This document shows positions 38,419 through 48,877 of a DNA stretch of 64,000 nt, in pieces (positions within the stretch are counted from its first letter, which is position 1; the number at the start of each line of letters is the position of its first letter). A program made the translations under genes and the position numbers. Source of the stretch: an uncultured Verrucomicrobiota bacterium (GTDB lineage Bacteria > Verrucomicrobiota > Verrucomicrobiia > Limisphaerales > UBA9464). Under the pieces are notes generated by a model. It was not told the DNA's origin. It searched no databases and worked only from the letters and a program-made list of their open reading frames with translations. Location of the stretch: assembly GCA_903916195.1 (NCBI GenBank), contig CAIWVP010000034.1:1-64000 (forward strand), written 5' to 3'.

Positions 38419-39255
38419 ATGAGGCTGAACCTGGCAGGGCGGAACGCAATCTTGACGGGCGCCAACGGCGGCCTCGGAGTCCATTTCACGGCGGCATTGT
38501 CAAAGGCGGGGATGAACCTGCTCCTCGTCGCCTATCCCGGCATCGGTCTCGAAGACGTGCAAGCGGCGGCGCGCAAGGATTCGGTCCAGGCCGAGATCCT
38601 GGTGGCGGACCTGAGGGTGCCCGAGGAGCGGACCCGCGTGGTCGAGACGGCGATGGCGCGATTCGGGTCGATCGATCTGCTGGTGAACAACGCCGGGGTC
38701 GAGTTCTCGTCCACCTACCACGACCTCGATGTCGACCGGATCCGCGACGTCATCAACGTCAATCTGGAGGCGCCGATGATGCTCACCCGGTTGGCGTTGC
38801 CGCACATGCTCCGGCAAAGACGCGGCCACATCGTGAACATCTCGTCGCTCGCCGGGAAATCGGGGCCGGGTTACCAGGAACCCTACGTCGCCACGAAAGC
38901 GGGCCTGAGCGCGTTCACGCTGTCCCTCCGCAACACATATCGCGGCACCGGTGTGAGCGCGTCGGTCATCACGCCGGGTTTCGTCGAGGCGGGGATCTAT
39001 TCCCGGCTCAAGGTCCAGACCGGTCGGTCCGCGCCCATCTTCCTCGGGGCCTGTTCGCCCCAGAAGGTCTGCGCCGCCTTGTTGCGGGCCGTCCGCGACG
39101 ACGTGCCGGAGGTCATCGTGAACCGGTATCCGATCCGTCCGGTGCTGGCGCTGACCACATTGTTCCCCGCGTTCGGTGAATGGATGACCGAATGGACCGG
39201 CACGAACGCGTTCTTCCGCCGTGCCCACGAGGCCTCCAAACACCCGGAAGCATGA
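38419..39255 (+). CDS. Short-chain dehydrogenase/reductase
   Basis: ILTGANGGLGVHF (TGxxxGxG), NNAG, YVATK (YxxxK). Confidence 0.88.
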   Translation: MRLNLAGRNAILTGANGGLGVHFTAALSKAGMNLLLVAYPGIGLEDVQAAARKDSVQAEILVADLRVPEERTRVVETAMARFGSIDLLVNNAGVEFSSTYHDLDVDRIRDVINVNLEAPMMLTRLALPHMLRQRRGHIVNISSLAGKSGPGYQEPYVATKAGLSAFTLSLRNTYRGTGVSASVITPGFVEAGIYSRLKVQTGRSAPIFLGACSPQKVCAALLRAVRDDVPEVIVNRYPIRPVLALTTLFPAFGEWMTEWTGTNAFFRRAHEASKHPEA

Positions 39256-39346
39256 CGACCCACCCCGGATCCCGCCCACGGCTGCGGCCAAATGGGCCCC
39301 GAGCCTTCCCTGACGGACATCGCTTTACCATCCCTAGACTCAACGA

Positions 39347-39376
39347 TTGCCCAACATGATATCGAAGGGTTAAAAT
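39347..39376 (+). promoter_or_regulatory. Candidate sigma70-like promoter for the FadL-like gene
   Basis: TTGCCC-N18-TAAAAT in an AT-rich pocket immediately before the ATG at 39384. Confidence 0.35.
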
Positions 39377-39383
39377 TATAGAC

Positions 39384-40607
39384 ATGTCCAAAACGCCCCA
39401 TCCTCGCCGTCTTCTGTCCGCTGCCGTCTGCTTGGCGGCGACGTTCGTCCCGGCGCATGCCGGTGGTTTCCGACTCCCGGACCAGGATGCCTTCGCCACG
39501 GCCCGAGGTGAAGCGTTCGCTGCGACCGCCGACAACCCGTCGGCGGTCTACTACAACCCGGCCGGCATCACACAACTCGAAGGCCATCAGGCGCGATTCG
39601 GCGTCTATGGGATCGACCTCGGGGTGAGCTACACCTCACCTGCCGGGAAGAAGCACGACAACAGCAAGGACCTCCACGCCGTCCCGCAGATCTTCTACAC
39701 CTTCACCCCCGAAAAATCGCCGGTCTCGTTCGGCTTCGGAGCGTATTCACCCTATGGCCTGAGCTCGGAGTGGCCGGAGGACACGGGATTCCGCAGCGTG
39801 GTGCTGGGCGGAAAGCTGACCTACCTGACACTCAACCCCGTGGTCGCGTGGCAGATCACGCCGACATTATCCATCGGCGGCGGAGCGATGATCAACTACG
39901 CCGAAGCCGACCTGCGGAGCGGTCTGTCGCCGATCGCGGGTGTCGGCCAGTCGCGGCTGAACGGCTCCGGCTGGGCGCCGGGGTTCAACGCGGGGATCCT
40001 CTGGAAACTCTGCGAGAAGGTGCAGATCGGCCTGAATTACCGGAGTGAATCGCGGATCCCGCTGGACGGCTACCTCGATATCACATCGCCGGTCTTCAGC
40101 GCGCATCCGGATGCCAAGGCCGAGCTCCCGTTCCCGCAGACCTTCGTCGCCGGCATCTCATATCGGCCGACGCCGGATTGGAACCTGGAGTTCGACATCG
40201 AGTGGAACGACTGGAACCGGCTCAACTCGATGAGCGTCCACGCGCCGCAGGCGCCGTTCCTGGACTCGGCGATCGCGTTCAACTGGCAGTCGAGCTTCTA
40301 CTACGAGTTCGGAGCCACCCGGCACCTCGGGGGCGGCTGGTCCGTCAGCGCCGGGTACATCTTCAACGAGAACTCGGTGCCCGACCACGACTTCACGCCG
40401 CTGGTCTCGGACTTGGACCGGCATTTCGTGAGCTTCGGCGGGGGCTACAAGCATGGCCGGCTGAGCGTGGACCTCGCCTACCAGCTCGGCTACGGGCCGA
40501 CGAGGACCGTCACCGGCAACCCGGTGAACTCCTCCGGCCAATCAGCGAACGGCGAGTACGACTTCCTCAGCCACGCGCTGCTCTTGAGCATGGGCTGGCA
40601 TTTCTGA
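39384..40607 (+). CDS. OmpP1/FadL/TodX-family outer-membrane protein
   Basis: Signal peptide; GGFRLPDQDAFATARGEAFAATADNPSAVYYNPAGITQLEG; C-terminal aromatic GWHF. Confidence 0.88.
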   Translation: MSKTPHPRRLLSAAVCLAATFVPAHAGGFRLPDQDAFATARGEAFAATADNPSAVYYNPAGITQLEGHQARFGVYGIDLGVSYTSPAGKKHDNSKDLHAVPQIFYTFTPEKSPVSFGFGAYSPYGLSSEWPEDTGFRSVVLGGKLTYLTLNPVVAWQITPTLSIGGGAMINYAEADLRSGLSPIAGVGQSRLNGSGWAPGFNAGILWKLCEKVQIGLNYRSESRIPLDGYLDITSPVFSAHPDAKAELPFPQTFVAGISYRPTPDWNLEFDIEWNDWNRLNSMSVHAPQAPFLDSAIAFNWQSSFYYEFGATRHLGGGWSVSAGYIFNENSVPDHDFTPLVSDLDRHFVSFGGGYKHGRLSVDLAYQLGYGPTRTVTGNPVNSSGQSANGEYDFLSHALLLSMGWHF

Positions 40608-40717
40608 CATGCTGTACGGACGGTACCGCCCGCTTCCGACGGGTGGCGCGGCGATCCGATGGGCCGTGGCCGGCGTGGACCACGCCCGACAGGACAACTT
40701 GCTTTAGACCGATCCGC

Positions 40718-42151
40718 ATGGCGACGAAACCGACAGGTACCTTATCGGGCGAGCGAGAGAGCTTCATCAGCTGCCGCAACAGCCAGGGCGCGGAGGTCCG
40801 GGCCACGCCGGTGCGCCTGACCCGCTTCACCGTGGTGCTCGAGGTCTACAACCCGTTCAGCATCGTCCAGATCTCCGAGGTGCTGAGCGAGTTCCGGATC
40901 ACGATGAACGACCGGCTGGTCTATTCCGGCCGCGCCGTCGTGAGCAACATCGTCAACACCGGCATCATGGTGTTGTGCGAGGCCACGCTGGACGATTCAT
41001 GGCTCGACGTGGACATGTTCTCGTCGTCCGCCCATCCGGGGCGGCTACGGGACGAGTTCGGCGAGTTCCTCCAAGAATGGCAGAAGATCCATAGCGTCAC
41101 CCCCGGCTTCAAGGTCGTGGTGGCCGACATGCAGACGCTGCTCGCCGACCTGCGGCGGTGGATGGAGCAGGTGGAGCTGGGCATCCGTTCGTCACCCGGA
41201 GGGAACCGGGCCTTGCTTGAACGCGACGTGATCACCGACCTGAGCCAACCGGTGCTGACGGTGATCGACGAGTTGTTCGACCGGTTCGAATCGATCGCCG
41301 GCTCCTTGGATCCCGCGCTGCAGCCGATGCACCGGAACTATATCAAGCGACAACTGCATCCGCTGGTGCTCTGCGCGCCGTTCGCCTACCGCACGTTCCA
41401 GAAGCCGCTCGGGTACGCCGGCGACTACGAGATGGTGAACATGATCCTCCGCGACCCGTTCGAGGGCGGCTCTCTGTTCGCCAAGACCGTCAACCTCTAC
41501 TTCCTCAACTCCGCCCCGGCCCTCGCCCACCGCAACCGCATCAAGTACCTGGTGCAGGTCCTCTCGGCCGAGGCCCGCCGCACCTCGGCCGAAGGACGAC
41601 CTGTCCGCATCCTCAACCTGGGCTGCGGACCCGCCGGCGAGATCCAGCAGTTGCTGGCGACCGATCCAGTCGTGGACCAGATGGATTTCACGTTGATGGA
41701 TTTCAACGACGAGACGCTCGATTTCACGCGGCACCGCTTGGATGCACTGAAGGTCCAGCACGGGCGCCGGACGCCGCTCCAGTTCGTCAAGAAATCCGTC
41801 CACCAGGTCCTCAAGGAAGGTTCGCGGCCCGAGCACGGCCAGCCGCGCTACGACCTCATCTACTGCGCCGGCCTGTTCGACTACCTCTCCGACCGGATCT
41901 GCCAGCGGTTGATGACCATCTTCTACGAGATGCTCGCCCCTGGAGGGCTGCTCGTCGCCACCAACGTCGATCCGAGCAACCCTTCTCGGAACGGCATGGA
42001 GTTCATCCTCGACTGGCATCTCGTCTACCGTGACCGCGAGCAGCTGAAGCTGCTCCATCCGTCAGGCGTGCCCGACGAGAACATCGTCAGCCGCGCGGAT
42101 GAGACGGGCGTCAACATCTACCTTGAAGTCCGCCGTCCCATCGATCGTTGA
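40718..42151 (+). CDS. Class I SAM-dependent methyltransferase, PhcB-like (putative fatty-acid methyl ester signal synthase) with ~150-aa N-terminal domain
   Basis: ILNLGCGPAGEIQ SAM motif; MHRNYIKRQLHPLVLCAPFAYRTFQKPLGYAGDYEMVNMILRDPFEGGSLFAKTVN; DLIYCAGLFDYLSDR. Confidence 0.65.
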   Translation: MATKPTGTLSGERESFISCRNSQGAEVRATPVRLTRFTVVLEVYNPFSIVQISEVLSEFRITMNDRLVYSGRAVVSNIVNTGIMVLCEATLDDSWLDVDMFSSSAHPGRLRDEFGEFLQEWQKIHSVTPGFKVVVADMQTLLADLRRWMEQVELGIRSSPGGNRALLERDVITDLSQPVLTVIDELFDRFESIAGSLDPALQPMHRNYIKRQLHPLVLCAPFAYRTFQKPLGYAGDYEMVNMILRDPFEGGSLFAKTVNLYFLNSAPALAHRNRIKYLVQVLSAEARRTSAEGRPVRILNLGCGPAGEIQQLLATDPVVDQMDFTLMDFNDETLDFTRHRLDALKVQHGRRTPLQFVKKSVHQVLKEGSRPEHGQPRYDLIYCAGLFDYLSDRICQRLMTIFYEMLAPGGLLVATNVDPSNPSRNGMEFILDWHLVYRDREQLKLLHPSGVPDENIVSRADETGVNIYLEVRRPIDR

Positions 42152-44810
42152 CGGCGGACCGGAGGCCGATGCGGCGTTCCAGGAGGCCTTCCACTCAGAG
42201 GACCTCCGGGAGCGCCTCCGCATCGGGAAGCTCGGCTGCGCGCTGGTCATCGTCCTGATGCCCCTCGGGGCCTCGCTGGACTACGTCGTCTACAAGGACG
42301 ACGTCGCGGTGTTCCAGTTCTTCCTCGGGCTCCGGCTCCTGTGCTCGCTGGTCACGGGCGCGTTGCTGGCCGTCCACCACACCCGGTGGGGCGAGCGGAA
42401 CGTGCGGATGCTCGGCCCGTTCATCGCGCTCCTGCCCGCCGTGTGCATCGCCGGCATGATCGGTCACAAGGATCAGTGGGGATCCCACTACTACGCCGGC
42501 CTGAACCTCGTCCTCATCGCCGTCAACGTCGTCGCCCGCTGGACCGTCCGCGAATCGCTCGCCATCGTCGGCAGCGTCGTCGCGTTCTACCTCTCGGCAT
42601 GCCTCATCGGGACCGGCTGGCCAGAGGCCCCCGGGCAGCGGCAGGACCTCTTCAACAACCTGTACTTCCTCACGTTGACAGGTGTGATCGTGGTCGCCGG
42701 CAACTGGCTCTACAACCAGCTCCGGGAGCGCGAGTTCGCCCTCCGGTACGAGCTCGGCAAGAACCAGCGCCAGCTGCAGGAGGCCAACCAGAAGCTGCGC
42801 GACCTCGACGAGGTGAAGAGCCGTTTCTTCGCCAACATCAGCCACGAGCTCCGCACCCCGCTCACGCTGCTGCTCGGGCCGCTCGACGCGCTCATCCGGC
42901 AGCGGGGCCGCCTCGGCGAGCCGGAGATCGACGAGCACCTGGAGACGATGCACGGGAACGGTCTCCGCCTGCTCAAGCTCATCAACGACCTGCTCGACCT
43001 CGTCCGCCTCGACTCCGGGCATATCGCCCTACGACGCGAGGCCGTGCCGCTCTCCCAGTTCTTCGGCGGCGTGGTCAACTCGACCCGCAAGCTCGCCGAG
43101 GACCGCCGGATCCAGCTCCGCCTCGTCCTCGACGACCAGATGGGCCGCGCGATGCTCGACCCGGACAAGCTGGAGAAGGTCCTGTTCAACCTCATCATCA
43201 ACGCGATCAAGTTCACCGCGAGCGGCGGCACGATCACCTGCCACCCCGAGCGCCACGGCGACGAGATGGTCATCGAGGTGAGCGACAGCGGCGTCGGCAT
43301 CCGGTCGGACGACCTCCCGCACATCTTCGACCGGTTCTGGCAGGCCGACACCAGTTCCCAACGCAAGCACCAGGGCACCGGTATCGGCCTCGCGCTCGTG
43401 AAGGAACTGGTCGAGGCGCAGGGAGGTCATGTGACGGTCGCCAGCGAGGTCGACAAGGGCACGACCTTCACCATCACCCTGCCATGGATCGATCCGCCCC
43501 GGACCGATCCACACGCCCAGCCGGTCACTGTGCTCCCGCCGGCCGGGCCGGCCGAACCGCAGGACGCTTGGCTGGTCAGTCTCTATCGCAGGGCGGAGCT
43601 CTTCCCGGGGATCGCCCCGCTCAAGGAGAGCCTGAGGCCCGACACCATGTCGTCCACCGACCACCGGCCACGGATTCTCATCGCGGACGACGAGCCGGAC
43701 ATGTTGCGGTTCCTGCGGTCCCAACTTTCCGGGCAGTTCCAGGTGTTCGAAGCGGTGGACGGACAGCAGGCGATCGAGAAGGCCGCCCAGTTCCTGCCGG
43801 ACATCATCCTTTGCGACATGATGATGCCGGAGAAGGACGGCCTGGACGTCTGCCGCGAGGTCCGCGCGCGGTTCCCGACCCGCAACATCCCCATCGTGCT
43901 GCTCACCGCACGGGCCGACGACGAGACCAAGCTCGCAGCGCTGGCCGCCGGCGCGAATGACTTCCTGTCCAAGCCGTTCTCGACGACCGAGCTCCGGATC
44001 CGCCTCAAGAACCTGGTCGACGCCCAGAGGCTCCAGAAGGAGCTGGCCTGGCAGAACCAGAAGCTGCAATCGACCCTCGAGCAGCTGAAGGAGACCGAAT
44101 CGCAGCTCGTGCAATCCGAGAAGATGGCCTCGCTCGGCCGCATGAGCGCCGGGATAATACACGAGATCAACAACCCGCTGAACTATGCCAAGACGGGCAT
44201 CTTCACGCTCCAGAAGATGGGCCGCTCGATGCCGCCCGGCGAGATCGCCGATTTCGAGGAGATCCTCCATGACATCGGCGACGGGCTCACCCGTGTGGCC
44301 GGGATCGTCGGCGACCTGAGGGCTTTCACCCATCCCCACGGCGGGGCGATGGAGGATGTGGATGTCCGCGCCGTCGCGGCCGGCGCGCTGCGGTTCCTCG
44401 CGGCCGAGACCAAGGATGTCGCGATCGACAACGCCATCCCGCCGGGTTTCCGGGTGAGGGCGAACCGCAACAAGCTCATCCAGGTCTTCGTCAACCTGCT
44501 CCAGAACGCCGTCGACGCGCTCGGCGAGAAGCGGTTCAGCGACGGCGAGACCGCCCGGATCGTGCTCGGGGCCGAGGCCACGGACACCGCCCGGACCGTC
44601 ACGTTCCACGACAACGGCCCCGGGATGGATACCGATATTTTGGACAAGATTTTTGACCCGTTCTTCACCACCAAGGAGGTAGGCAAGGGCACCGGGCTCG
44701 GATTGAGCATCTGCTACCGCATCATCAACGAGGCCGGCGGGCGCATCACAGCCCAGAGCGAGCCAGGAAAGTGGACCGAATTTGCATTGGAGTTCCCGAC
44801 GACAGTGTGA
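42099..44810 (+). CDS. Membrane hybrid sensor kinase: ~6 TM segments, HK, REC, second HK
   Basis: [16 protein letters not shown] (H-box 1); [14 protein letters not shown] ... [14 protein letters not shown] (REC); [16 protein letters not shown] (H-box 2); [14 protein letters not shown] (second G-box). Start overlaps the upstream gene; a downstream TTG at 42123 is possible. Confidence 0.88.
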
Positions 44811-44842
44811 CATAAGAAAAACGCCTCAACGCACTGCCGGTC

Positions 44843-46108
44843 ATGGATCCCCACTACGATTACAAGCGATACGCCGTCCTTTATGTGGATGACGAGGAGA
44901 AGTCCCTGAAGGGCTTCGATCGCGGCTTCAAGGACACTTTCCGCATCCTCACGGCGACCAACGCCGACGATGCCCTGCGCTTGATCGAGACCCAAGGTGA
45001 TGAGATCGGCGTCATCATGTCCGACCAGCGGATGCCCGGCATGAAGGGCGTGCAGTTCCTGGAGCGCTCGCGCCAGCTCCGGCCCAAGACCGTCCGCATC
45101 CTCGCGACCGCCTTCACCGACCTGGATGCCGCCATCAGCTCGGTCAACAACGGCGCCATCTACAAGTACGTCTCCAAGCCCTGGGAACCGTACGAGCTGG
45201 ACCACGTGCTCAAACGTGCCCTCGAGTTCTACACGGTCCAGAACGAGCGAGACCAACTGCTGCGCGAGAAGATGTCGGTGCTGCACAAGATGGTGATCAC
45301 CGACCGCGTGCTCAGCCTCGGGGTGCTCGCCGCCGGCCTCGGCCACCACGTGCGCAACGCGATGTCGGCCGTCCGCACCTTCCTCGACCTCGCGCCCGAG
45401 ATGCTCCACCGCGAGAGCCTCGATCTCAACCAGCTCCACCACCCGGCTTTCTGGCAAGATTTCCACCACAAGGTGCAGGGTCGTGTGAAGCTGCTCGTCG
45501 ACCTGCTCGACGACCTCTCCGACCACACGCAACCGGGACCGTTCCAGTTCGACAGCGAGATCGGTCTGCGCGACGTGATCTCCGACGGGGTGACCGAGAT
45601 CGGTCTCGAGCTGGCCGGCCGCCGCATCCAGGTCATCAACGATATCCCGTCGGATCTGCCGCGCCTGCTCGTCGACCTTCCGAAGATCCGCAAACTCTTC
45701 CAGCTCCTCCTCCGCGACGAGCTGACCAACCTCCAGGACGGCGCAACCATCCGGTTCGAGGCCGCTGCCCGCGAGGCCACCGCTCTCCAGCCTGCCGGTG
45801 TCGAGCTCTTGATCCAGGACGACGGACCGGGCCTCCCCCAGGCCTCGATCATGGCGGTCTTCGACCCGTTCTTCGTCCGGAACGACAGCCCGGACGAGTT
45901 CGGGATCTACCTCATGGCGTGCTACTTCATCGTGTACCATCATGGCGGCACGATCCATGTGGGACCGGGCAAGGACGGAGGCCTCGCGTTCCGCATCTGG
46001 CTCCCGTTGGCGCCCGGCATCGGGACGGCGAGCGAAGAGAACGCAGATTTCCTTGTCCGGGTGATGACCAACGAACGGCTTTGGGAACGCCTGCTCGCGA
46101 CCCCCTGA
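44843..46108 (+). CDS. Response regulator (REC) with C-terminal histidine-kinase-like region, PhcR/PhcQ-like
   Basis: VLYVDDEEKSLKGF ... IMSDQRMPGMKG ... YKYVSKPWEP (REC); AAGLGHHVRNAMSAV (H-box-like); DDGPGLP; degenerate G2 box. Confidence 0.8.
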   Translation: MDPHYDYKRYAVLYVDDEEKSLKGFDRGFKDTFRILTATNADDALRLIETQGDEIGVIMSDQRMPGMKGVQFLERSRQLRPKTVRILATAFTDLDAAISSVNNGAIYKYVSKPWEPYELDHVLKRALEFYTVQNERDQLLREKMSVLHKMVITDRVLSLGVLAAGLGHHVRNAMSAVRTFLDLAPEMLHRESLDLNQLHHPAFWQDFHHKVQGRVKLLVDLLDDLSDHTQPGPFQFDSEIGLRDVISDGVTEIGLELAGRRIQVINDIPSDLPRLLVDLPKIRKLFQLLLRDELTNLQDGATIRFEAAAREATALQPAGVELLIQDDGPGLPQASIMAVFDPFFVRNDSPDEFGIYLMACYFIVYHHGGTIHVGPGKDGGLAFRIWLPLAPGIGTASEENADFLVRVMTNERLWERLLATP

Positions 46109-46120
46109 GCCTCCGGATGT

Positions 46121-47401
46121 ATGTCGCCACCCCCCTCCATGCACCCGGTCCGCGCCGGCGGCGTCCTGACGGCGGACAGCCCGGCGTTGCCGCCGCTGCC
46201 CGTGCGCCGTCCCGTGCTGCTCGTGGTCGACGACGACGAGCCGCTGCGGCAGGCGTTGCGGCTCATCTTCGAGTACCAATACGAGGTCGTGCTCGCCGCG
46301 TCCGGACCGCACGCGCTCTCGCTGATCCAGCGCGGGCTCTTCGATGTCGCGGTCGTGGACATCCGCATGCCCGGCATGTCGGGCTTCGAGTTCCTCGAGC
46401 GCTCGCGGACGGTGGACCCCGACATCCAGACGGTGATCCTCAGCGGGCAGAGCACCTTCGAGATGGCCCGCCAAGCGGTGCGGCTCGATGCGTTCGATTT
46501 CCTGCCGAAGCCGTTCGACTTGCAGGTGCTGCGGCAGACCATCCAACAGGCGGCCCGGCGACGCGCATGGCTGCGGTTCGAGAAGAAACGCGAGGCGGCG
46601 CTCCAGCGCGCGGTGACCGCCGCGGAGACGGCCGCGCAGGAACGTGACCTGCTGGTCAGCCTCTTGTCCGAATTCCGCGCCCCGCTCAACTCGATCTCCG
46701 CGGGGGCGGCAGCCCTGGACCAGGAGTTGACCCGGCAATCCACACCCTCCGAGCCGCAGGTCGCGGCGTGGCGCCACCAGCTCCAGGAGCTCGGCCGCCA
46801 AGCGACCCTCTGTGTCCAGTTGGCGGGCGGCCCCCGGCAGGACCTCTCGTCGCCCGGTCCGCCCGAAGGCGTGCCAGCCGTGCAGGTGATGGACGACCTG
46901 GGACGCTTGCTCCGCGTGCACCCGGCGTCCAAGGGCCACCAGCTCACGATCCGCCCGCCCGCGCTGCCCGCGGGCTTGAAGGCGCGGGAGGCGGACCTGC
47001 TCCGCATCCTGGTGAACCTCGGCCGCAACGCGCTCGAATCCTCCGAGGTGCCGCACCGCGTGGACTTCGAATCGTGGCTGGTCAACGAACCGGTCCTGCT
47101 CGACGGCCCTGAACGTTCCCAAGGCCGCTTCGTGCTGCGCGAGACGTTCGAGAACCGTCCGCCCCTGCTCGCGATCGCGGTCAAGGACGACGGCCCGGGG
47201 ATCTCGCCGGAAATTTGGCCGCACCTCTTCCAAACCGCTGTCACGACCAAGCCCGGCAGGGGCGATGTCGGCCTCGGACTCACCTCGGTGCGGGACCTCG
47301 TCGCCGCCACCGGATGCGCCCTGGAGATCCGCAGCGAGCCCGGATCCGGGACCACGGCCACGCTCTACGTGCCGGTCGTCCGCCCGGTGGACCCTTCGTA
47401 G
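46121..47401 (+). CDS. Response regulator (REC) with C-terminal HATPase, H-box His apparently absent
   Basis: LLVVDDDEPLRQAL ... VAVVDIRMPGMSG ... FLPKPFD (REC); LLSEFRAPLNSIS; VNLGRNALESSE; KDDGPGISPE; GDVGLGLTSVRDLV. Confidence 0.8.
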   Translation: MSPPPSMHPVRAGGVLTADSPALPPLPVRRPVLLVVDDDEPLRQALRLIFEYQYEVVLAASGPHALSLIQRGLFDVAVVDIRMPGMSGFEFLERSRTVDPDIQTVILSGQSTFEMARQAVRLDAFDFLPKPFDLQVLRQTIQQAARRRAWLRFEKKREAALQRAVTAAETAAQERDLLVSLLSEFRAPLNSISAGAAALDQELTRQSTPSEPQVAAWRHQLQELGRQATLCVQLAGGPRQDLSSPGPPEGVPAVQVMDDLGRLLRVHPASKGHQLTIRPPALPAGLKAREADLLRILVNLGRNALESSEVPHRVDFESWLVNEPVLLDGPERSQGRFVLRETFENRPPLLAIAVKDDGPGISPEIWPHLFQTAVTTKPGRGDVGLGLTSVRDLVAATGCALEIRSEPGSGTTATLYVPVVRPVDPS

Positions 47402-47465: not shown

Positions 47466-48877
47466 ATGCGCAGAACCAAGATCATCGCCACGCTCGGGCC
47501 CGCCACCGACTCGTCCGAGATGCTCGGACGCCTCATCGACGCGGGCATGGACTCGCCCGGCTGAACATGTCCCACGCCACGCCCGATTGGGTGCGCCGCG
47601 TCGTGAAGGACATCCGCGCCCACTCCAAGGCGCGCGGCGTCGCCATCGGGATCCTGCTCGACACCCAAGGCCCCGCGATCCGCACCGGCGATGTGCCGGC
47701 GAAGATCCCCCTCGCGGTCGGTGACCGCTTCGTCTTCACCGTCCAAGGCGACTCGCTCCGTCCCGACGAAGGTGTCAAGGGCACGTCCGTCGGCTACGAC
47801 GGGTTCGCGGCGGACGTCGAGGTCGGCAAGACGCTGATCGTGGACAACGGCGAGCTGCGGATGCGCATCCTCTCCAAGACAGCCACACGGGTCGTGTGCG
47901 AAGTGCTCACCGAGGGGCAGATGGGCAGCCGACGCCACATCAACCTCCCCGGCGTCCGCGTCTCGCTCCCTGCGTTGACCGACAAGGACAAGGCCGACGT
48001 GGAGCTCGGGCTCGAGGTCGGGGTCGATTTCATCGCGCTCAGCTTCGTCCGCGATCCCGATGACATGGCGCAGCTGCGCGCGCTCGTGGCCGGTTCGCCG
48101 CACCAGCCCAAGCTCATCGCCAAGATCGAGCACCAGTTCGCGGTGGACCACTTCGAGGCCATCGCCCGGGCCTCCGACGGCGTGATGGTCGCGCGGGGCG
48201 ACCTGGGCATCGAGTGCCCGTACGAGGAGCTGCCGATCATCCAGCGCCGCATCGTCAAGAAGTGCCAGGAGATCGGCCGCCCGGTGATCGTCGCAACGCA
48301 TCTGCTCGAGAGCATGATCACGAACCCGATGCCCACGCGCGCGGAGATCACCGACGTGGCGAACGCCGTGTTCGAGCAGGCCGACGCCATCATGCTCAGC
48401 GGCGAGACGACCGTGGGGAAGTACCCGCTCCAGTGCATCGAGGTGTTCGACACCGTCACCCGCCGCATCGAGCGGAGCGGTGGAGCCGATTACCACCACG
48501 CCGCCGAGCTCACGTCGCCGCGGCAGAAGCTCGTGAAGAGCGCGGTGCTGCTCGCCGACGAACTGAAGGCCGCCGCCATCGTGGTCTTCACCCGGCGCGG
48601 CCACATGGCCCGCTACGTCTCGTGGCTCCGGCCGCGTTTTTCCCCCATCTACGCCTTCGCCGACCGCTGGACGACCGCGGAATCCCTCGCGATCTGCCGC
48701 GGCGTCGTGCCTGGTGTCGTCCCGTTCACCCACGCGGAACCGGACAAGACCGTCGACGCCGCCCTCGCGTCGCTGATGGCGAAAGGCCGACTCAAGCGCG
48801 GCGATGCCGTCGTCGTGCTCAGCATCGTCACCGCCGGCGACCAGCTCGTGGACGCGGTGACGATGCGCGTGATCTGA
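47466..48877 (+). pseudogene. pyk: Pyruvate kinase with an apparent 1-nt deletion frameshift near 47552 (may be a sequence error)
   Basis: MRRTKIIATLGPATDSSEMLGRLIDAGMD in frame 3, then [V]ARLNMSHATPDW... in frame 2; inserting one G after 47552 restores the reading frame. Confidence 0.85.

Follow-up and report, generated by a model that had tools for sequence, protein, structure and literature searches.

Genes of the locus and identity of the methyltransferase

The window, the whole stretch of 64,000 nucleotides analysed here, belongs to contig CAIWVP010000034.1 of an uncultured Verrucomicrobiota bacterium (assembly GCA_903916195.1), and carries a cluster of six genes which probably encodes a cell-cell signalling module related to phcBSRQ of Ralstonia and Cupriavidus. 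A first-pass annotation, made from the letters of the DNA, had described six same-strand open reading frames (ORFs) at this locus, and the ORF calls place them at the coordinates it gave. They encode, in order, a short-chain dehydrogenase/reductase (SDR), a FadL-type channel, an S-adenosylmethionine (SAM)-dependent methyltransferase, a hybrid histidine kinase and two receiver proteins, with intergenic distances of 128, 110, -53, 32 and 12 bp. The domains of the window's proteins were assigned by Pfam, and NCBIfam was scanned as well.

The methyltransferase had been placed in the PhcB family from motif similarity. On METHYLTRANSFERASE as PhcB, the general libraries are indecisive: the best Pfam domain is the generic SAM-methyltransferase domain Methyltransf_12 (residues 299-412, 32 bits), and no NCBIfam model scores over its cut-off for this protein. 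Reference PhcB sequences were obtained by a tblastn search of plasmids and then by scanning 85,462 genomes with an alignment led by the plasmid homologue. The plasmid search revealed a full-length homologue in Paraburkholderia graminis, in a locus ordered methyltransferase, membrane kinase, receiver, receiver. The best 80 matches of the genome scan, which served as the betaproteobacterial comparison loci, belong to Paraburkholderia, Cupriavidus, Janthinobacterium and their kin.

In the Cupriavidus reference loci, PhcB has 463, PhcQ 330-335 and the PhcR ORF 383-405 residues (counted from the first possible start), close to the published 464-468, 336-337 and 368-374 residues (PMC8578825). PhcB of these loci carries Arg22 (position from PMC6989110), and the equivalents of the autophosphorylated His230 and of Leu161 of PhcS are found at +1 (positions from PMC11960443, PMC6989110). 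Because of these lengths and residues, the loci are identified from sequence as genuine phcBSRQ.

The window methyltransferase aligns with Cupriavidus PhcB at 42-43% identity over 452-455 residues (380-400 bits, E 1e-119 to 5e-131), and Cupriavidus PhcB, searched against the whole genome of the window, has this gene as its single match (E 1e-119), making the two reciprocal best hits. The PhcB-type gene is present there in a single copy. The family assignment is therefore borne out over the full length, and no unrelated family scores better, Methyltransf_12 with its 32 bits being the nearest general one. CheR or another protein methyltransferase was considered and rejected on scores, since the CheR match (E 0.027) reaches 14 bits against a cut-off of 27.

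The AlphaFold2 model of the enzyme (mean predicted local distance difference test, pLDDT, of 81) shows a beta domain at the N-terminus, a long stretch of helices and a class I methyltransferase domain. The beta domain is predicted to contain six strands with moderate confidence (pLDDT mostly 63-81, falling to 53 near residue 91). A Foldseek search with the model returned many O-methyltransferases with modest template-modelling scores, the top match being a Bordetella protein of unknown function, and a search of solved structures by sequence gave marginal matches only (E 0.056 and worse). The fold matches support class I methyltransferase as the enzyme class; as they are generic members of that class, the substrate is not inferable from the fold. 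A related domain was seen on a plasmid of Enterobacter ludwigii, where a type I polyketide synthase (L034:1754-4891) matches the PhcB-family methyltransferase domain with its C-terminal part at 26%.

Kinase and receiver proteins

Downstream of the methyltransferase lies a kinase with the Pfam architecture HisKA-HATPase-REC-HisKA-HATPase. The 53-bp overlap reported between the two genes stands if translation begins at ATG 42099, but alignments with the kinases of relatives usually begin about 20-25 residues later, so the true start may be located downstream. Searched against the genome of the window, Cupriavidus PhcS finds this kinase first, with E 7e-39 for the second histidine kinase core (HK2) and a second matching stretch across the sensor and the first core (HK1). 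About 200 residues of the sensor show homology to PhcS: blastp against 18 betaproteobacterial PhcS proteins gave E 7e-8 to 1e-21, and the alignment has the blocks LLP..I.WMI and YY.GLNL in common. HK2 shares 33-37% identity with the PhcS kinase domain and aligns with its His230 region.

Betaproteobacterial PhcS has about 445 residues and contains no HK1-receiver unit. Its simple architecture of a sensor and one kinase core is not that of the window kinase and is found only in two compact relatives, L138 and L192; because these retain the PhcS layout, long and compact forms both exist in the group. Across HK1, receiver and HK2, the residues His249, Asn368, Asp573, His688 and Asn803 do not vary among the 26 long-form relatives compared, so that a multi-step relay within the hybrid kinase is plausible.

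The products of the two genes that follow each combine a REC and a HATPase domain in Pfam. The first-pass annotation had seen no DNA-binding output in the regulators, in agreement with the Pfam scan of the three proteins, which detected no such domain. Cupriavidus PhcQ has the first of the two as its best match in the genome (40% identity over 156 residues, E 2e-33; next locus 6e-16). As the best matches of PhcB, PhcS and PhcQ are the methyltransferase, kinase and PhcQ-like genes, three consecutive genes of the window are the best counterparts of the genes of one operon. Receiver residue Asp61 of the PhcQ-like protein is retained in 27 of 27 members, and the kinase Asn has been lost from the kinase-like half of most of them; this C-terminal half is probably a pseudokinase or a phosphotransfer domain. 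The PhcQ-like proteins of more distant families are 346-397 residues long, and two of them align with PhcQ over nearly the whole length. The receivers closest to PhcQ (47-53%) are those of L190 and L191, both belonging to a branch linked to polyketide synthases that is described below.

The last protein of the cluster shows 27% identity to Cupriavidus PhcR over residues 4-418. Its phosphoacceptor His is gone in the genus of the window, with a His-box that reads SEFRAP in the window and is of the LHDLNGPL type in other families. Outside the window, the same genome also encodes a second pair of a kinase and a PhcQ-like receiver (G000:C168:8257-9728), the receiver being 39% identical to that of PhcQ.

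Table 1. Features of the locus in window coordinates, with one feature of related loci in their own coordinates
Feature	Position	Strand	Basis
SDR-family reductase, 278 aa	38419..39255	+	Pfam adh_short 7e-46; accessory
FadL/TodX outer-membrane channel	39384..40607	+	Pfam PF03349 (Toluene_X/FadL) 4e-56
PhcB-family SAM methyltransferase, 477 aa, proposed signal synthase	40718..42151	+	Cupriavidus PhcB homology
Methyltransferase N-terminal beta domain, residues 15-91 (predicted)	40760..40990	+	AlphaFold2 model
Class I SAM-binding methyltransferase domain, residues 293-475	41594..42142	+	NLGCGPAGE; Methyltransf_12; AlphaFold2; Foldseek
PhcS-like hybrid kinase, 903 aa, sensor - HK1 - REC - HK2	42099..44810	+	Pfam; PhcS match
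Membrane sensor domain common with PhcS, residues 21-235	42159..42803	+	blastp, alignment
Inserted HK1 and receiver unit, residues 240-636, absent from PhcS	42816..44006	+	Comparison with compact forms
HK2, equivalent of PhcS kinase domain, HEINNP motif, His688	44085..44801	+	PhcS kinase alignment
PhcQ-like receiver protein, degenerate HATPase C-terminus, 421 aa	44843..46108	+	PhcQ match
PhcR-like receiver and HATPase protein, phosphoacceptor His lost, 426 aa	46121..47401	+	PhcR match
AraC-type helix-turn-helix proteins	L180:4404-4829, L181:4798-5190, L182:14093-14527, L183:4555-5004		

Beyond the cluster, a pyruvate kinase gene (window 47467-48877) is interrupted by an apparent frameshift near 47550. 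In close relatives it is one intact ORF (470 aa in L116, L117 and L119), and the break in the window may be a sequencing or assembly error or a broken gene.

Conservation of the locus and its FadL channel

The distribution of the locus was followed in 58 related genomes, from which 32 locus stretches were examined, and in a wider sample of 390 genomes across the phylum, which provided 20 more distant stretches. A PhcB-type gene is found in 33 of the 58 relatives (a 34th match, weak and partial with E 1e-4, was left out), and a PhcS-type sensor domain in the same 33, the other 25 having neither gene (Fisher p 6e-17). The kinase follows the methyltransferase directly in 29 of the 32 stretches; two of the exceptions lie at contig ends, and the third, in G033 (G033:C110:8973-10028, locus L142), is a second copy of the methyltransferase, partial and unlinked. 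The phylum-wide sample adds methyltransferase loci at 31-61% identity, in which a sensor kinase adjoins the methyltransferase in 20 of 20 stretches (split into two ORFs in L185) and a PhcQ-like gene comes next in 18.

The linkage to kinase genes on which the first-pass annotation had staked its proposal is thus conserved in the order and in the phylum, both as adjacency in the two samples and as perfect co-occurrence in genomes. Such recurrence of the methyltransferase-kinase pair exceeds chance, and an artefact of metagenome assembly or contamination was rejected because some members of the phylum with single-contig genomes (G311, G314) also have the module. When identities are compared pair by pair, those of the methyltransferase and those of the sensor are correlated (r 0.82, and 0.79 within groups), owing partly to shared descent. 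The genome had also been called Verrucomicrobium-like, which agrees with the target site of probe EUB338-III, which we take to be a specific verrucomicrobial marker, in the 16S genes of two genomes of the same genus and of 15 of 39 relatives. The site is not present in the window's own assembly, probably since the 16S gene is unassembled there.

The FadL and SDR genes had been listed by the first-pass annotation and were not built on. FadL turned out to be a conserved partner of the module, the SDR less often so. The window protein matches the FadL beta-barrel profile (Toluene_X/FadL) over residues 24-394 with 191 bits against a cut-off of 29.7. FadL-family genes occur in 32 of the 33 methyltransferase-positive and in 6 of the 25 negative genomes (p 3e-9), and FadL adjoins the methyltransferase in 25 of the 33, in most cases no more than 300 bp away and transcribed in the same direction or divergently. 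Chance adjacency was rejected here too, as FadL-family genes are usually single-copy in the related genomes examined. At several loci, FadL is only 23-30% like that of the window, which would fit the recruitment of different FadLs to one position. The flanks of the 80 betaproteobacterial loci contain no FadL (0/80). In Sinorhizobium, FadL takes up long-chain acyl-homoserine lactone (AHL) signals (PMC9938287), and for this reason a role in moving a lipid signal would be a reasonable inference for the FadL of the locus.

The SDR accompanies FadL in about ten loci (an SDR family cluster of 10 loci) and may act, for example, on a 3-oxo or 3-hydroxy acyl chain. A PapA-like acyltransferase, with a weak Pfam match, lies on the opposite strand between FadL and the methyltransferase at L119:9017-10126 and clusters with ORFs in three other loci.

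Several variants of the locus exist within the phylum. Directly upstream of the methyltransferase, L186, L188, L189, L190 and L191, from three verrucomicrobial families, encode a type I polyketide synthase of about 2100 residues, single-module and fully reducing (KS-AT-DH-ER-KR-ACP), with no thioesterase match; the domains were scanned in L186, and the others were assigned by membership of the same sequence cluster. This neighbour points to an acyl substrate for the methyltransferase, and a polyketide-derived signal is possible in these five loci. A short AraC-type helix-turn-helix protein, a candidate DNA-binding output, is encoded just after the PhcQ-like gene in four loci, all from the same family. 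In L194 (2089-4146), the PhcB-type methyltransferase has a receiver domain fused at its N-terminal end, which suggests control of signal synthesis by phosphorylation. In the methyltransferase tree, betaproteobacterial PhcB forms one branch (support 100/100) adjoining the verrucomicrobial branch linked to polyketide synthases; the tree has no outgroup, so the direction of transfer is undecidable from it.

Interpretation and relation to known systems

With a probability of about 0.72, we read the locus as a phc-type module for cell-cell signalling by fatty acid methyl esters, with lipid passage through FadL, PhcS-type sensing and a PhcQ-like relay. The PhcB-family enzyme would methylate a long-chain fatty acid, probably a 3-hydroxy acid, at its carboxyl group and so produce a diffusible methyl ester. 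We infer that the FadL channel passes this hydrophobic molecule across the outer membrane, transport and direction alike, and that the hybrid kinase senses it through its PhcS-type membrane domain. The sensor would then control phosphoryl flow from HK1 through the receiver and HK2 to the PhcQ-like receiver, and to the PhcR-like protein where present. PhcQ binds and stabilises PhcA (PMC13320629), and since it works in this way, the absence of DNA-binding domains is normal for its family; the regulators of the window may likewise exert their effect through protein contact with, or phosphotransfer to, an unlinked regulator. The function of the module is probably quorum sensing, with a presumed dependence on cell density.

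Some observations weigh against such a module. The PhcQ-like protein matches PhcQ in the receiver and linker only, its degenerate C-terminal HATPase not being alignable, and the PhcR-like gene is missing from most loci (10 PhcR-like against 27 PhcQ-like genes). No PhcA orthologue was identified, and the four LysR proteins of the window's genome are all unlinked to the locus. An identity of about 40% to PhcB leaves the substrate of the methyltransferase unfixed, and the same motif is also carried by shorter enzymes and by the plasmid polyketide synthase.

In the strongest alternative, the architecture is the same and the methyltransferase acts on another acyl or polyketide carboxylate, not a 3-hydroxy fatty acid, giving a related but chemically distinct lipid signal. 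The polyketide synthases upstream of the methyltransferase in five loci, the related domain that ends the Enterobacter plasmid synthase and methyltransferase identities down to 28% within the phylum, which leave room for a change of substrate, keep this a real, though less probable, possibility; the window locus itself has no polyketide synthase, and its enzyme is at least as close to Cupriavidus PhcB as many members of the phylum are to each other. An ordinary two-component locus, where a CheR-like or other protein methyltransferase modifies the kinase for adaptation with no small-molecule signal, is very improbable, as the CheR match that would favour it, along with the receiver fusion of L194, stays below its cut-off when PhcB reaches hundreds of bits. 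To our knowledge, PhcS-type sensors have no chemoreceptor-like glutamate helices. The locus could also sense the cell's own lipid or membrane state, the methyl ester or FadL-imported fatty acids reporting fatty-acid supply with no density function. Fatty-acid import is the classic role of FadL, the main genomic partner here, but the strict tie of methyltransferase to sensor (33/33) is expected of a synthase-receptor pair and needless for nutrient sensing, and in Ralstonia the homologous system serves quorum sensing (PMC8578825, PMC11960443), so that self-sensing appears unlikely. The signalling module with a fatty acid methyl ester is preferred.

A bolder extension, which we regard as speculative and rather doubtful, is that quorum sensing by fatty acid methyl esters, or polyketide methyl esters, is phylum-wide in Verrucomicrobiota with FadL as its own dedicated signal channel in the outer membrane, and that Ralstonia phc is an offshoot which lost the FadL link. 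If so, the position of the betaproteobacterial branch beside the branch linked to polyketide synthases would reflect transfer between phyla.

Among known systems, lqs and cqs combine a synthase gene of their own with a membrane sensor kinase and with regulators of the kinase/receiver type. The window locus resembles them in this content (gene content from PMC10653808), and the first-pass annotation had drawn the analogy with Legionella lqs, which applies at most to the type of kinase: the genes and signals of Lqs differ from those of Phc, and LqsA is a pyridoxal-phosphate (PLP)-dependent synthase, not a methyltransferase (PMC10653808). In Pfam, none of the six genes of the locus has a PLP-dependent synthase domain of the LqsA/CqsA type. 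The signal of Sinorhizobium is an AHL from a LuxI-type synthase and not a methyl ester, as proposed here. There, as would be the case for the window locus, a FadL channel carries the long-chain signal through the outer membrane (PMC9938287).

The closest likeness is to phcBSRQ of Ralstonia and Cupriavidus, whose signals are 3-hydroxypalmitic and 3-hydroxymyristic acid methyl ester (3-OH PAME and 3-OH MAME). In both, the methyltransferase comes first, followed by a PhcS-type kinase and then by receivers without a DNA-binding domain. The claim of an identical order stands for synthase and sensor, but the PhcQ-like gene precedes the PhcR-like gene, which is often absent. The window locus also differs in belonging to another phylum, in that no PhcA was identified and in the degenerate HATPase that ends the PhcQ-like protein.

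In a survey that covers Proteobacteria, as far as its text shows, the phc cluster has a restricted distribution, in Betaproteobacteria (PMC10653808). Among 5.4 million open papers searched, PhcB or 3-hydroxypalmitate methyl ester and Verrucomicrobia appear as passing co-mentions only, with no report of PhcB in that phylum, though these genes may already carry a label in automatic annotation databases. Since a phc homologue is conserved across Verrucomicrobiota, usually beside FadL, phc-type lipid signalling probably extends far beyond the Betaproteobacteria from which it was described. If confirmed, a soil phylum that ranks among the most abundant and the least understood uses lipid signals akin to those of a major crop pathogen, and cross-talk in the rhizosphere becomes a possibility. 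Compared with phcBSRQ, what is new is the kinase-receiver unit inserted in the kinase and the FadL (with the SDR at some loci) joined to the methyltransferase, a conserved neighbour that opens to testing an old question, the passage of very hydrophobic quorum signals through the outer membrane.

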